This document shows positions 2,752 through 21,747 of a stretch of 64,000 nucleotides of DNA, one piece after another. Position numbers and translations under genes: made by a program. The first letter of the stretch is position 1, and each line of letters opens with the position of its first letter. The notes under the pieces were generated by a model that saw nothing but the letters and a program-made list of their open reading frames with translations, did not search any database and was not told the DNA's origin. The stretch comes from Pseudomonadota bacterium (GTDB lineage Bacteria > Desulfobacterota > Syntrophorhabdia > Syntrophorhabdales > Syntrophorhabdaceae): assembly GCA_026388315.1 (NCBI GenBank), contig JAPLKA010000128.1:1-64000 (forward strand), read 5' to 3'.

Positions 2752-3507
2752 ATGAACATTAAAAGGGCGTTTCGCGTCTGGCAGAGGCATTTTGCGGTAT
2801 ATACAAAGCTCTATAAATCGAGCATTGTTCTCAACTTCGTTGAGCCCATACTTTATCTCCTTGCCCTGGGGGTTGGCCTCGGGGCCTTTATAAAAGACAT
2901 TAACGGGGTGCCCTATGTAAACTTTATCGCCCCTGGTATCATCGCCTCATCTTCCATGTTTGCCGCAACCTACGAATGTACATATGGCACATACATAAGG
3001 ATGACCTTTCAGAAAACCTTCGATGCCATCCTTGCAACACCAGTCAATATCGACGACCTCATAGCAGGAGAATTAATCTGGGCGGCCACAAAAAGTGTGT
3101 TTTACGGTACGATTATTATCGCAACCCTTTCTGTGTTTCGTCTCGTGGATTCCCCTCTTGTCCTGCTTGTTATCCCTGTTCTGTTCCTCAGCGGACTGGT
3201 TTTTGCGGAATTATCCATGATATGCACTGCCATAGTGCCAGGAATCGATTCCTTCAACTACTTTTACACCCTCGTCATGACCCCCATGTTCCTTTTTTCC
3301 GGCATATTTTTTCCTGTTGATACCTTCCCGCCGGTCATTTCCCGCATCGCATCATTCACGCCGCTCTTTCACCTGACGAATATCTGCCGTGCATTCGCAT
3401 GGGGTAATGTTTCGAACGTTAAATGGGATATTGTCTGGCTGATTGGAATGGTGATAATACTTGTTCCATTGTCTTTCAGGTTGATGCGCAGACGCATCAT
3501 TAAGTGA
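2752..3507 (+). CDS. ABC-2 type exporter, permease (NodJ-like)
   Basis: A 251-residue membrane protein with about six hydrophobic spans (near 25-45, 60-80, 108-130, 142-160, 170-190 and 225-245). It keeps the ABC-2 family motifs: 'FVEPILYLLALGVGLG' in the first span region, 'FIAPGI' after it, and the late segment with PMFLFSGIFFPV followed by the 'TPLFHLTNICRA' amphipathic stretch, which is diagnostic of NodJ/DrrB-like permeases. RBS AAAGGATG precedes the ATG. It forms the membrane half of the exporter with the preceding ATPase; both are on the same strand and should be co-transcribed. Confidence 0.9.
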   Translation: MNIKRAFRVWQRHFAVYTKLYKSSIVLNFVEPILYLLALGVGLGAFIKDINGVPYVNFIAPGIIASSSMFAATYECTYGTYIRMTFQKTFDAILATPVNIDDLIAGELIWAATKSVFYGTIIIATLSVFRLVDSPLVLLVIPVLFLSGLVFAELSMICTAIVPGIDSFNYFYTLVMTPMFLFSGIFFPVDTFPPVISRIASFTPLFHLTNICRAFAWGNVSNVKWDIVWLIGMVIILVPLSFRLMRRRIIK

Positions 3508-3526
3508 GGCTAAGGACTATCACTTT

Positions 3527-3578
<52 letters not shown>

Positions 3579-3586
3579 TTATAGCT

Positions 3587-3952
3587 TCAGAGGCTTCCAT
3601 ACAAAGGGAAATGGAGCATCATTTTCTCTTCAATTTCGTCTAATATAACAGTTGCCAGGTCAAGCGGTGTTTGTGCATCTTCCCAACCTGCCGGATTGTA
3701 ATCTTCATCAGAATTTATCATAAAAAAATTTACCAATCGCACCGGCCTCCATGTTATCATTGCTTCAACTGTTTCAAGCACCGGACTTTCTGCCTCTATT
3801 CTTCCACCTTCAACGCCCCATTTTGCTAATTGAACAGCATACATGCTCACCGGATCCGGTTTTTCGCCTGTCTGAATCAACATTTCCTTTGCCTTTCCGT
3901 TGACGGGAAGCGAATTTAACCAAACGACATCATACGATTTATTTTCCTTCAT
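3587..3952 (-). CDS. Conserved-looking hypothetical protein, 121 residues
   Basis: I do not recognise a family. The protein is soluble, acidic and has no signal peptide. It opens MKENKSYDVVWLNSLPVNGKAKE and has hydrophobic segments (AVQLAKWGVEGG, VEAMITWRPVRLVNFFMI) that suggest a compact alpha/beta fold. It lies 15 bases downstream of the ppx-like gene on the same strand, so the two are probably co-transcribed. Codon use looks like that of its neighbours, and the frame is clean over the full length, which supports it being a real gene. Confidence 0.6.
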   Translation of the reverse strand: MKENKSYDVVWLNSLPVNGKAKEMLIQTGEKPDPVSMYAVQLAKWGVEGGRIEAESPVLETVEAMITWRPVRLVNFFMINSDEDYNPAGWEDAQTPLDLATVILDEIEEKMMLHFPLYGSL

Positions 3953-3967
3953 AATACCTGTCCTTTT

Positions 3968-4879
3968 TTAAGAATTTTTCTCAAACGCTTCGGAGAGGAC
4001 TCCATACCTTACGCCGTTTGCGCTTACAGTCAGTTCCTGTGCACCAAAATATTCCATAATCTCTTTTAAAAGGAGAATACCCTGAAGTATAATATCTTCC
4101 CTGCCTTTCTCCATTCCCTTAATGCGGGACCGATCATGTGAGGTTAAACCTTTGAGCTTTTCTATAATGCCTTCAATTTCCTTCAATGCTATTGTATGAC
4201 CATGTATCTTTTCCTTTTCAAAAACCTCCATGCCAAAAATAATGCCCGCCGCATTTGTTACAGTGCCGCCTGTTCCAATAAGAGCGCTGCACCCATCCCC
4301 GTAGAAAGGTATATTCAGCAGATTCTTCACATGATCAACCAGGGAAGAAATCTCCATTGTTGATGGAGGGTCATTTTTTATAAACATCTCCGTCAGTTTT
4401 ACAGAACCAACCGGCAACGAGACGAAATCTACAAACCCTTCTTCATCTCCTTTAATAATCTCCGTGCTTCCCCCGCCAATGTCCGTTATAATGACACTTC
4501 CTCCCTTAACGAACGTATCGCCCTTCACTGAAAGATAGGTATAAAATGCCTCTTCCTTTTCACTTATTATTGTAATCGGAATCCCCAGCTTTTCCTCAAC
4601 CTCATCCAGAAAAATCTTACTGTTTCCCGCCTCCCTCAGTGAGGCGGTCCCGACACAGAAAATCTTTTCCACGTTATGTTCCTTCATAATGCCATTATAT
4701 CGTTGCAGGACTGCGAATGTCCGCTCCATTGCCGCCGCAGAGAGGACGCCGCTCTTTTTCAACCCTTCTCCAAGCCTTGTAATGGTTGAAATATCAAGGA
4801 CATCCACGGGTTGGCCGGCTTTCTCAACAATAGCCAGCAATACCGTATTGGTGCCTATGTCAATGCACGCATATTTCAT
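3968..4879 (-). CDS. ppx: Exopolyphosphatase / pppGpp phosphohydrolase family protein
   Basis: A 303-residue member of the Ppx/GppA family in the ASKHA fold, hydrolysing polyphosphate or pppGpp in the cytoplasm. The N-terminal phosphate loop is IDIGTNTVLLAIVE (7-20) and the second loop is DIGGGSTEII (about 137-146); a third Gly-rich loop GTGGTVTN is near 202. The length fits the short, two-domain form that lacks the C-terminal HD region of E. coli Ppx. Whether polyphosphate or pppGpp is the main substrate cannot be decided. It is divergent from the ccdA-like gene and leads the small hypothetical gene after it. Confidence 0.88.
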   Translation of the reverse strand: MKYACIDIGTNTVLLAIVEKAGQPVDVLDISTITRLGEGLKKSGVLSAAAMERTFAVLQRYNGIMKEHNVEKIFCVGTASLREAGNSKIFLDEVEEKLGIPITIISEKEEAFYTYLSVKGDTFVKGGSVIITDIGGGSTEIIKGDEEGFVDFVSLPVGSVKLTEMFIKNDPPSTMEISSLVDHVKNLLNIPFYGDGCSALIGTGGTVTNAAGIIFGMEVFEKEKIHGHTIALKEIEGIIEKLKGLTSHDRSRIKGMEKGREDIILQGILLLKEIMEYFGAQELTVSANGVRYGVLSEAFEKNS

Positions 4880-16962: not shown

Positions 16963-17095
16963 TTGCTGAGCCCTGGCTCGGCAATAATCTGATGTGTGTA
17001 CGTGATAATTAACGGGGAGCTGAGCGGTGGCACGACCCTGCTCACACCAAAGGTGTGACTGCAGAGGGAGTGACAACGTTCCAGCGTTTTGTTAC
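16963..17095. other. Cluster of hairpins 3' of the relE/parE gene
   Basis: Inverted repeats: TTGCTGAGCC/GGCTCGGCAA (16963-16984), a hairpin around TCACACC/GGTGTGA (17042-17058) extended by CCCTG/CAG-GGG, and AACG/CGTT with flanking pairs (17070-17095) ending at the stop of the toxin gene. No gene fits here. The nature of the cluster is unknown. Confidence 0.45.
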
Positions 17096-17355
17096 CCGCC
17101 TTTATTTTCAGGTTCTTCAGGCAATTGAGCACTATGCCATACGGCAATGATCCATACAGTCTCATCTTTGACTTTATAGAAAAACCGATATGGTCTCACA
17201 ATTACCTCGCGAAAAGGGAGGTCTGAGAACAAGCGAGAGAGATTCTTCTCAGCCTTTTTGCGAAAATCTACTGCCGCCGAAGGGTTATCCCGGTAAATAT
17301 AAGCAATTGCTTCAAGAAACTGGCGGCGGCCCGTAGGGGTGAAAAGAACTTTCAA
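17092..17355 (-). CDS. RelE/ParE-family toxin
   Basis: An 87-residue toxin of the RelE/ParE superfamily: MKVLFTPTGRRQFLEAIAYI with the first strand and helix, a central helix with AEKNLSRLF, and the C-terminal strands with REVIVRPYRFFYKVKDETVWIIAVWH. The pattern 'VRPYRFFYKV...VWIIAVWHSAQ' is closer to ParE than to ribosome-dependent RelE, so gyrase could be the target, but this is not certain. Its start overlaps the stop of the antitoxin gene by four bases, as usual for such pairs. Confidence 0.88.
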   Translation of the reverse strand: MKVLFTPTGRRQFLEAIAYIYRDNPSAAVDFRKKAEKNLSRLFSDLPFREVIVRPYRFFYKVKDETVWIIAVWHSAQLPEEPENKGG

Positions 17356-17633
17356 GGTTTTGAACTCTCAAGAAAGCGGTCGGCCTCTTTCAGAACATCT
17401 TCAAGTTCATAGCCGGTACCCGTCTCGATCTCTTTTTCACCACGAGCGAGTAACCGCAATATGTCAAGCTCGTGTTGAGACTCCTCATAAACATGCATGC
17501 TGACCATAACTGCAGCCGCTCGCCCACGCTGAGTTATGAAGACAGGTTCCCTGGACGACGAAACGCCTCTAACCACATCGCTGGCGTTTTGCCTGAGATC
17601 TGAAATCGGTATGATTCTTGGTGCATTTGGCAT
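17352..17633 (-). CDS. Phd/YefM-family antitoxin
   Basis: A 93-residue antitoxin. The N-terminal Phd/YefM fold is clear: IIPISDLRQNASDVVRGVSSSREPVFITQRGRAAAVMVSM in outline, with the DNA-binding N-terminus and the 'VFITQRGRAAAV' strand pair. The C-terminal acidic helix (LEDVLKEADRFLES) should bind and block the toxin encoded immediately downstream. AGGAGGT lies ahead of the ATG. The pair sits just left of the integron-like array. Confidence 0.9.
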   Translation of the reverse strand: MPNAPRIIPISDLRQNASDVVRGVSSSREPVFITQRGRAAAVMVSMHVYEESQHELDILRLLARGEKEIETGTGYELEDVLKEADRFLESSKP

Positions 17634-17712: not shown

Positions 17713-17773
17713 GGTAATCGGGGCAGTTAAGCCGTGCCCCGAAGGGGCATCGGTCTTCAACTCCTTGTTCTCC
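17713..17773 (-). other. attC-like site of cassette C1
   Basis: Cassette-sense order: R'' GGAGAAC, spacer AAGGA, L'' GTTGAAG, hairpin with TGCCCC/GGGGCA, L' CTTAAC, spacer TGCCCC, R' GATTACC. L'' pairs with L' leaving one extrahelical G; two further unpaired A bases lie on the same strand of the stem. The R' box departs from GTTRRRY. The body resembles aadA-type attC sites. Confidence 0.78.
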
Positions 17774-17774
17774 C

Positions 17775-18264
17775 GAAGCTGTAAGGAACAATCAATCCGC
17801 CCTCAAATCTAACAATCACTTAACCTTCAAGACTGGCAATATGACAAACCTTAGATATTCGAGATTACCATATTGAGCTTAGCAGGATTGTCTCGCTGTT
17901 TCTTGATCGTCTCCAGGCAATTTTTACAGGATCGGTTTAATCCAGTACTATAGAACCTCCCATTATTGCTCAGTTCAGTACAGAGGGCTGCATGACCAAT
18001 AACAATACATCCTGCCAGTCATGTACCATATTTTTTATGCTATATGGAAGACGCGATATATGTCAAGGCATTTCTATTTCATGAAGGTGTGGAAATATGG
18101 AAAAACCTCCGGCTTTATCACATTTCCACACCTTCTACGGCGTATCCATGTAAAGAGTCTATTATCAAGAGTATCAAGAGGAAAAGCATAAGTCGTCAAT
18201 AAAGATCATATGAGGGTGCAAGACTGTTATATATGAGGGTGTGAAGAGTAACACCTACAGAAGC
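17775..18264. mobile_element. 480-bp MITE with 5-bp target duplication, inside cassette C1
   Basis: The element spans 17780-18259 and is flanked by GAAGC (17775-17779 and 18260-18264), a site present once in the uninterrupted copy C2. Its ends begin TGTAAGG and (reverse strand) TGTAGGT and stay alignable for 34 bp with 21 matches, including CCCTCA at 21-26 and TAAC at 31-34. Inside are a 14-bp inverted pair GAAGGTGTGGAAAT/ATTTCCACACCTTC (18083-18096 and 18122-18135) and two ATATGAGGGTG direct repeats (18208, 18231). No transposase frame is present, so it is non-autonomous. TGT...ACA ends with 5-bp duplication resemble Tn7/Mu/IS-type DDE transposons; the parent is not known. Confidence 0.8.
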
Positions 18265-18323
18265 GGAGCGACGGGAAGGAGTTGACGGCTTAACTGCCCC
18301 GATTCTCGCGGCGCGAAGCGCCG

Positions 18324-18383
18324 GGAGAACGACTGGCATCACCGGCGCGCGTCAGCGCGTCCGTGTGCATGCCATGGTTAGAT
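18324..18383 (-). other. attC-like site of cassette B
   Basis: Cassette-sense: R'' ATCTAAC (fits RYYYAAC and contains the gene's TAA stop), spacer CATGG, L'' CATGCAC, stem CGG/CCG and CGCGC/GCGCG with unpaired A bases on one strand, L' GTGATG, spacer CCAGTC, R' GTTCTCC. CAT-G-CAC against GTGATG leaves one extrahelical G. This is the best-formed attC of the array. Confidence 0.82.
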
Positions 18384-20364: not shown

Positions 20365-20425
20365 GATAATCGGGGCAGTTAAGCCGTGCCCCGAAGGGGC
20401 ATCGGTCTTCAACTCCTTGTTCTCC
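20365..20425 (-). other. attC-like site of cassette C2
   Basis: Same as the C1 site except R' GATTATC instead of GATTACC. Geometry R''(7)-5-L''(7)...L'(6)-6-R'(7) is exact, with the extrahelical G in GTT-G-AAG. Confidence 0.78.
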
Positions 20426-20497
20426 CGAAGCGGAGCTACGGGAAGGAGTTGACGGCTTAACTGCCCCGATTCTCGCGGCGCGAAGCGCCGGGAGAAC
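20426..20497. repeat. Body of ORF-less cassette C2: inverted, internally deleted attC copy
   Basis: The 20 bases at 20451-20470 (ending AACTGCCCCGATT) are the reverse complement of 20368-20387, and AAGGAGTTG at 20443-20451 mirrors CAACTCCTT of the attC. So the cassette body is a second attC in inverted orientation lacking its apical hairpin. Two further hairpins, around CCCG...CGGG and GGCGC/GCGCC (20478-20489), complete the 126-bp unit. No ORF fits. Confidence 0.6.
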
Positions 20498-20730
20498 AAG
20501 TTATTCTATAGTTTCTGACTAATTCCACAAATCAATTATTCTTTCGTGGCTCTATGCAATAACAATGCTCTGTTGTCCATACAAATTATGGTCTTACCGA
20601 CCTCTCAGTGACAACTTAAATCGTTGATATAATAATGTATAATCTCTTGATAAACTATTTGCAACAATTTGTTTTATCTTTCCGTATATCATGTCAATTT
20701 TAAGATTATATAGAAATCGGAGGATTCCCC
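20498..20730. other. Gap between cassette array and integrase remnant, where attI and promoters would lie
   Basis: AT-rich, non-coding, about 230 bases. In an integron the attI site and the divergent integrase and cassette promoters lie here. I see no palindrome of attC type and no certain promoter; attI sites are not recognisable by consensus. The junction on the cassette side is AACTT^GTTCTCC in cassette sense. Confidence 0.35.
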
Positions 20731-20859
20731 ATGCTTGCTATCCCTTCTGCTCTACAGACCAAATTTGAAGAACATTTACGGAACAGGGCCATTCAAAACA
20801 GCTTGCACGGGATGTACAAAAAATGGCTGCAATATTATCCGGACTTTTGCCGGAAATAG
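20731..20859 (+). pseudogene. 5' remnant of an integron-integrase-like tyrosine recombinase (42 codons)
   Basis: ATG at 20731 follows a good RBS (CGGAGG) and reads MLAIPSALQTKFEEHL, then RNRAIQNSLHGMYKKWLQYY and PDFCRK before TAG. From memory this matches the N-terminus of the long integron integrases of delta-lineage bacteria, whose segments 'HGAYKKWLRYYLDFC' lead into the core-binding domain. The remaining 300 or so codons, including the catalytic Arg-His-Arg-Tyr domain, are absent; sequence after 20860 does not continue it. Position and divergent orientation relative to the cassettes are those of intI. A homology search would confirm or reject the assignment. Confidence 0.6.
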
Positions 20860-21341: not shown

Positions 21342-21542
21342 ATGAAATACAAGGTGAATCTACAAAAGACAGACGAGGGTTATTCCATATGGGTTCCTGG
21401 ACTTCCAGGTTGTTGGTCTCAGGGAAAAACAGAGGTAGAAGCCATGGAAAATATTAAGGACGCTATACAGGCTTATTTAGAAACAGTGGAAGAATTAACC
21501 AAAGACAAAGAATCACGATATGTAGAAATTGCAAATGCCTAA
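21342..21542 (+). CDS. hicB: HicB-family antitoxin
   Basis: A 66-residue HicB: the partial RNase-H-like fold is visible in MKYKVNLQKTDEGYSIWVPGLPGCWSQGKTEVEAMENIKD in outline, with the family phrase 'VPGLPGCWSQGKT' and the helix IKDAIQAYLETVEEL. It lacks a separate C-terminal DNA-binding helix-turn-helix, so it is the short form. It precedes and overlaps hicA, the reverse of the classical hicAB order. GGAGGTGAT gives a strong RBS. Confidence 0.92.
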   Translation: MKYKVNLQKTDEGYSIWVPGLPGCWSQGKTEVEAMENIKDAIQAYLETVEELTKDKESRYVEIANA

Positions 21543-21747
21543 ATTATCAGGAATAAATCATCAACGGGCTGTTAAAGCTTTTAAAAAAGCAGGCTTCTGG
21601 GCTGCACGGGAAGGCAAACATATTACAATGACTAATGGTGAACGCATCATCACAATTCCGAGAGCAAACCCTATCAATGCCCTTACAATGGCTGGTATCG
21701 TGAAAGATGCCGGATTTACGATTGATGAATTCAAAAAACTTTTGTAG
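21535..21747 (+). CDS. hicA: HicA-family mRNA interferase toxin
   Basis: A 70-residue double-stranded-RNA-binding-like toxin: RAVKAFKKAGFWAAREGKHITMTNG with the catalytic His in GKHITM, then ITIPRANPINALTMAGIVKDAGFTIDEFKKLL. I start at the ATG at 21535 (MPKLSG), inside the last codons of hicB (8-base overlap), rather than at the earlier in-frame codon. HicA cleaves mRNA until bound by HicB. This pair lies to the right of the integron remnant, so toxin-antitoxin pairs bracket the array. Confidence 0.92.
   Translation: MPKLSGINHQRAVKAFKKAGFWAAREGKHITMTNGERIITIPRANPINALTMAGIVKDAGFTIDEFKKLL

Follow-up and report, generated by a model that had tools for sequence, protein, structure and literature searches.

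The window, that is, the whole 64,000-nucleotide stretch of DNA analysed, carries a 480-bp insert at 17780-18259 that is flanked on both sides by GAAGC and splits an integron-associated palindromic repeat. The insert stands between a cassette with a Phd/ParE-type toxin-antitoxin pair and its neighbour, and the list of open reading frames contained no frame of at least 60 amino acids from a start codon within 17780-18259. The features discussed below are as follows.

17715-17779, + strand: left-hand segment of the split integron-associated palindrome, 100% identical to 20367-20431
17775-17779, no strand: left copy of the target site duplication, GAAGC, which is single in the eight intact copies of the host repeat
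17780-18259, + strand: predicted 480-bp non-autonomous IS21-family element, its ends matching those of the IS21 element L010
17780-17816, + strand: left terminal repeat, TGTAAGGAACAATCAATCCGCCCTCAAATCTAACAAT, equivalent to the end of the autonomous IS on the istB side
17787-17834, + strand: two 24-bp direct repeats, 71% identical, in the R1/R2 position, putative IstA binding sites
18083-18135, no strand: internal 53-bp palindrome
18199-18259, - strand: right terminal repeat region, equivalent to the end of the autonomous IS on the istA side
18208-18241, - strand: ATATGAGGGTG twice, 23 bp apart, in the L1/L2 position, putative IstA binding sites
18260-18264, no strand: right copy of the target site duplication, GAAGC
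18260-18330, + strand: right-hand segment of the split repeat, which shares 99% identity with the uninterrupted copy
20366-20858, + strand: what is left of a second integron platform, comprising the repeat, the leader and the initial 42 integrase codons, 88% identical in DNA to contig 46, 7936-8438
20367-20498, + strand: intact copy of the repeat, which represents the empty site and has a single-strand DNA fold z of -9.9

The host repeat is about 130 bp long and strongly palindromic, and the 3.8-Mb genome contains eight uninterrupted copies and the one interrupted copy. Besides 20367-20498, seven near-identical copies lie on contigs 46, 54, 84, 105 and 125, and those on contig 46 sit upstream of a complete integron integrase gene, which passes the NCBIfam integron-integrase cut-off. 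A palindromic repeat near an integron integrase is as expected of attC, but the core boxes do not follow the canonical order RYYYAAC ... GTTRRRY; read by eye, GTTAAGC precedes GCTTAAC and the ends read GTTCTCC. The term attC-like is therefore safer than attC, and the repeat could represent either an atypical attC or a mobile palindrome in its own right. It was absent from 40 relatives searched except for one short partial match (G017), and no Rfam families were found in the region. The contig 46 integron integrase (L033, 8311-9759) is 482 amino acids long, and its family match begins only at residue 172, which suggests an N-terminal extension of about 170 amino acids.

After the uninterrupted copy at 20367, the window has 360 bases that match the contig 46 integrase leader and first 42 codons, and integrase residues 1-42 are 74% identical between the two. 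Because both the leader and the truncated integrase start match contig 46, the array in the window reads as a second, decayed integron platform, whose genes include the Phd/ParE-type pair and two frames without family matches. An earlier note on this DNA had placed the insert within an integron cassette; the integron setting holds, and the sequence interrupted is the palindromic repeat between cassette genes rather than a cassette gene. A further copy of the repeat with the same leader occurs on contig 125. The decayed array is flanked by two toxin-antitoxin pairs, one of Phd/ParE type (17092-17633) and one of HicB/HicA type (21342-21747).

The earlier note had recognised the insert and its GAAGC duplication as a span of 17775-18264, which includes both copies of GAAGC; the insert proper is the 480 bp between them. 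Its empty-site argument had used one uninterrupted copy of the repeat and proves stronger than that, as GAAGC is single in 20367-20498 and in seven more intact copies genome-wide. Taken as its flanks and one GAAGC, the interrupted repeat agrees with the consensus of the eight intact copies at all of approximately 128 aligned positions, which argues that the insertion is a recent event. At the same locus in a relative (G002), comEC is kept and similarity stops directly after it, so that the empty-site evidence is a within-genome comparison.

The terminal repeats of the insert are identical at 24 of their first 40 positions in an ungapped comparison, a number reached by none of 2000 dinucleotide shuffles (mean 11, maximum 20), and the imperfect terminal repeats described earlier are thus real. 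The tips of the insert are TGT/ACA and each end has a pair of direct repeats, as in IS21, with CCCTCA blocks spaced 23-24 bp at either end; the right-end sequence reads TGTAGGTGTTACTCTTCACACCCTCATATATAACAGTCTTGCACCCTCATAT on the other strand. IS21 ends each carry two direct repeats, and integration by IstA requires the full pair at an end (PMC10122671). The CCCTCA blocks fit the approximately 24-bp L1/L2 and R1/R2 direct repeats bound by IS21 transposases and would be putative binding sites here. The suggestion in the earlier note that extra repeats are of the transposase-binding type is borne out by the ATATGAGGGTG pair on the right and extends to the 24-bp direct repeat on the left, again as putative sites. 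At 5 bp, the target duplication falls within the 4-8 bp span of IS21-family members. Duplications of 4-5 bp occur in other members of the family. Those of Paracoccus members measure 7-8 bp (PMC3281130), and a 5-bp duplication is in line with the 4-5 nt overhangs found optimal in IS21 biochemistry (PMC10122671).

A same-genus genome from Lac Pavin sediment contains an IS21 element (G002, contig 254, 1557-5712) whose two ends are matched, in the same arrangement, by the two ends of the insert. This 4.16-kb stretch encodes istB and istA, the latter split by an IS481-like transposase gene (3387-4568), and shows no matching target duplication. The partner istA matches NF033546 at 219 bits (cut-off 160), and the partner istB matches Pfam IstB_IS21 at 162 bits, far above the cut-off of 24, while scoring slightly under the NCBIfam cut-off (185 vs 200). 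A related IstA (L022) matches the solved IS5376 IstA with an E value of 1e-25. In this IS21 subgroup, a small cysteine-containing frame lies upstream of istA (L010, 1639-2064; L021, 1818-2231), and the L010 frame has no Pfam match.

At the left end of the insert, a 28-bp stretch is 93% identical to L010 5676-5703 and 37 bp are 86% identical to a cousin on contig 24 of the same genome; at the right end, 60 bp are 87% identical to contig 332 of a second relative (G010), where the istA-side end occurs a third time, at a contig terminus, and 58 bp are 81% identical to L010. To avoid circularity, a weight matrix for the ends was built from other elements only, without the insert's own ends. When the 64-kb window was scanned on both strands, the two top positions were 18259 on the - strand (49.8 bits) and 17780 on the + strand (38.2 bits), the next scoring 13.1 bits; the boundaries given by the matrix and by the target duplication agree to the base. 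An end model applied to the whole genome returned exactly four strong ends, two here and two on contig 24, against a background of about 13 bits, these four ends having been in its training set. Among species genomes, the end pattern picked up only the two relatives already known, G002 (JAPLKD010000271) and G010 (CAIJOT010000332), and further matches in a 395-genome phylum sample were weak or partial only. One genome (G005) retains a 31-bp truncated relic. Pattern matches in two others (G288 and G054) were inspected and look like chance. No copies of the element were found in plasmids and phages, and the end pattern was not found in viral contigs.

Since its ends are common to an element encoding istA and istB, the insert is assigned to the IS21 family, and we regard it as very probably a gene-less derivative of that family; this degree of confidence applies jointly to the derivation and to the mobilisation in trans set out below. 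The full-length element with the same ends that the earlier note had proposed to look for thus exists in a same-genus genome, whereas no matching helper was found in the insert's own. In that near-complete genome, IstB of this group was not found and IstA-like matches were only 23-24% identical, so that the element is probably stranded at present.

The contig 24 cousin is 463 bp long, has related ends, is strongly diverged and shows no matching target duplication. Outside the terminal 40 bp, the istB-side half of this cousin can be aligned with the IS (z = 4.2 vs shuffles), and a frame relic, NIIRLERRSYRTTR, resembles the IstB C-terminus, GTFISFEGRSYRKRK. The cousin probably keeps a relic of the istB end, and the alignment together with the relic suggests that it arose from an IS21 element through internal deletion. 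In the 480-bp element, similarity of the interior to the IS was not significant (z = 2.0 vs shuffles). A search for other copies, as suggested earlier, yielded no second close copy in the genome, which holds the one copy and the one diverged cousin. The label MITE is therefore apt for structure, the element being short and gene-less with terminal inverted repeats and a target duplication, and fails on copy number. The autonomous partner lies in a same-genus genome rather than in the same genome.

These data suggest a history in which the miniature element kept both ends, with their putative paired IstA-binding repeats, and lost istA and istB. IstA from such an IS, acting in trans with its helper IstB, would bind both ends and join them, and insertion into the tip of the integron-associated hairpin repeat would give rise to the GAAGC duplication. 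The element probably moved as a 480-bp unit, which is the simplest order of events because the target repeat is undecayed and the element interior is unrecognisable as IS21. A gene-less IS21 miniature mobilised in trans by IstA/IstB is, with high confidence, the best explanation of the sequence. Counting against it, there is a single close copy, which would make the case for movement as a 480-bp unit an indirect one. The non-significant interior similarity of this element, the lack of a matching target duplication in both the G002 element and the cousin, and the partner IstB score under the NCBIfam cut-off also weigh against it.

The same single copy would fit a different order, in which a full-length IS21 inserted here and then lost its genes by internal deletion in place, the 480-bp form never having moved. 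The ends and target duplication would look identical in that case, and the freshness of the target could reflect recent copying of the repeat. However, the flanking repeat has no mismatches to the consensus and yet the interior has no significant IS similarity, so that interior decay seems older than the insertion, and the cousin of near-equal length suggests a lineage of short forms. We consider deletion in place unlikely.

The position of the insertion raises a further question of targeting. In the predicted fold of the single strand, the duplicated GAAGC adjoins the 3-nt loop at the apex, and a preference for attC sites has been reported for IS1111-type elements (PMC9330008), so the element or its helper might prefer folded integron repeats and insert at the hairpin tip by structure. 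There is one case only, however, insertions beside an intact repeat are easier to notice, and both the contig 24 cousin and the G002 IS lie outside this repeat; such a preference is very doubtful. Slimmer still is the prospect of a class of IS21-derived miniatures that would be guided by the folded tips of integron recombination repeats and would switch off cassette exchange there.

Tn7-like elements also show TGT...ACA ends, a 5-bp duplication and multiple end repeats. Despite these likenesses, an origin as a miniature of a Tn7-like or Mu-like transposon is scarcely credible and was rejected, as the autonomous element with the matching ends carries nothing beyond istA, istB, the small upstream frame and a subsequent IS481-like insertion; neither a TnsA nor a TnsD-type gene was seen in it, and it has no TnsA/TnsB/TnsC set. 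A DDE transposase with an AAA+ helper and multiple end repeats are common to IS21, Tn7 and Mu (PMC10122671); the earlier description as Tn7/Mu-like captured this broad mechanistic group and missed the actual family, which is IS21 by the ends in common with the istA/istB element.

As a gene-less IS21 miniature, the element has 5'-TGT...ACA-3' ends, a short target duplication and, at either end, a pair of direct repeats spaced about 23-24 bp, like members of the IS21 family (IS5376, IS21), which encode the IstA transposase and the IstB AAA+ helper; unlike them it lacks istA and istB, and it is 480 bp long compared to the approximately 2-2.6 kb typical of the family's ISs. The bacterial MITEs MITEPsy1 and MITEPsy2, linked to ISPsy2 (IS5 family) and to a Tn3-family element, respectively, are likewise short and gene-less, with IS-like imperfect terminal repeats and a target duplication (PMC3189936), whereas the present element is larger, has a single close copy and no helper in the same genome, and has IS21 as its parent family. 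IS1111-attC elements also insert into integron recombination-type repeats but belong to an unrelated DEDD transposase family, and the 480-bp element has no demonstrated target preference. No paper on miniature IS21 derivatives was found among open-access papers, and such elements seem little described. The kind, a MITE-like non-autonomous IS derivative, is known and the member is new; as mobile DNA, the element is clear-cut but of a rather common type. Its ends are exact, its duplication is perfect and eight empty sites within the genome serve as controls, which makes it a clean reference example, and its 480 bp with two paired-repeat ends offer a minimal natural substrate for testing IstA/IstB in trans.

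Within the element, the 53-bp palindrome folds well (z = -5.8). Four further genomes of the family contain hairpins that share 86-88% identity with the central 43 bp of this palindrome. In one of them (L008), the hairpin lies directly 3' of an rve-type transposase gene, and the palindrome may be a captured piece of another IS.
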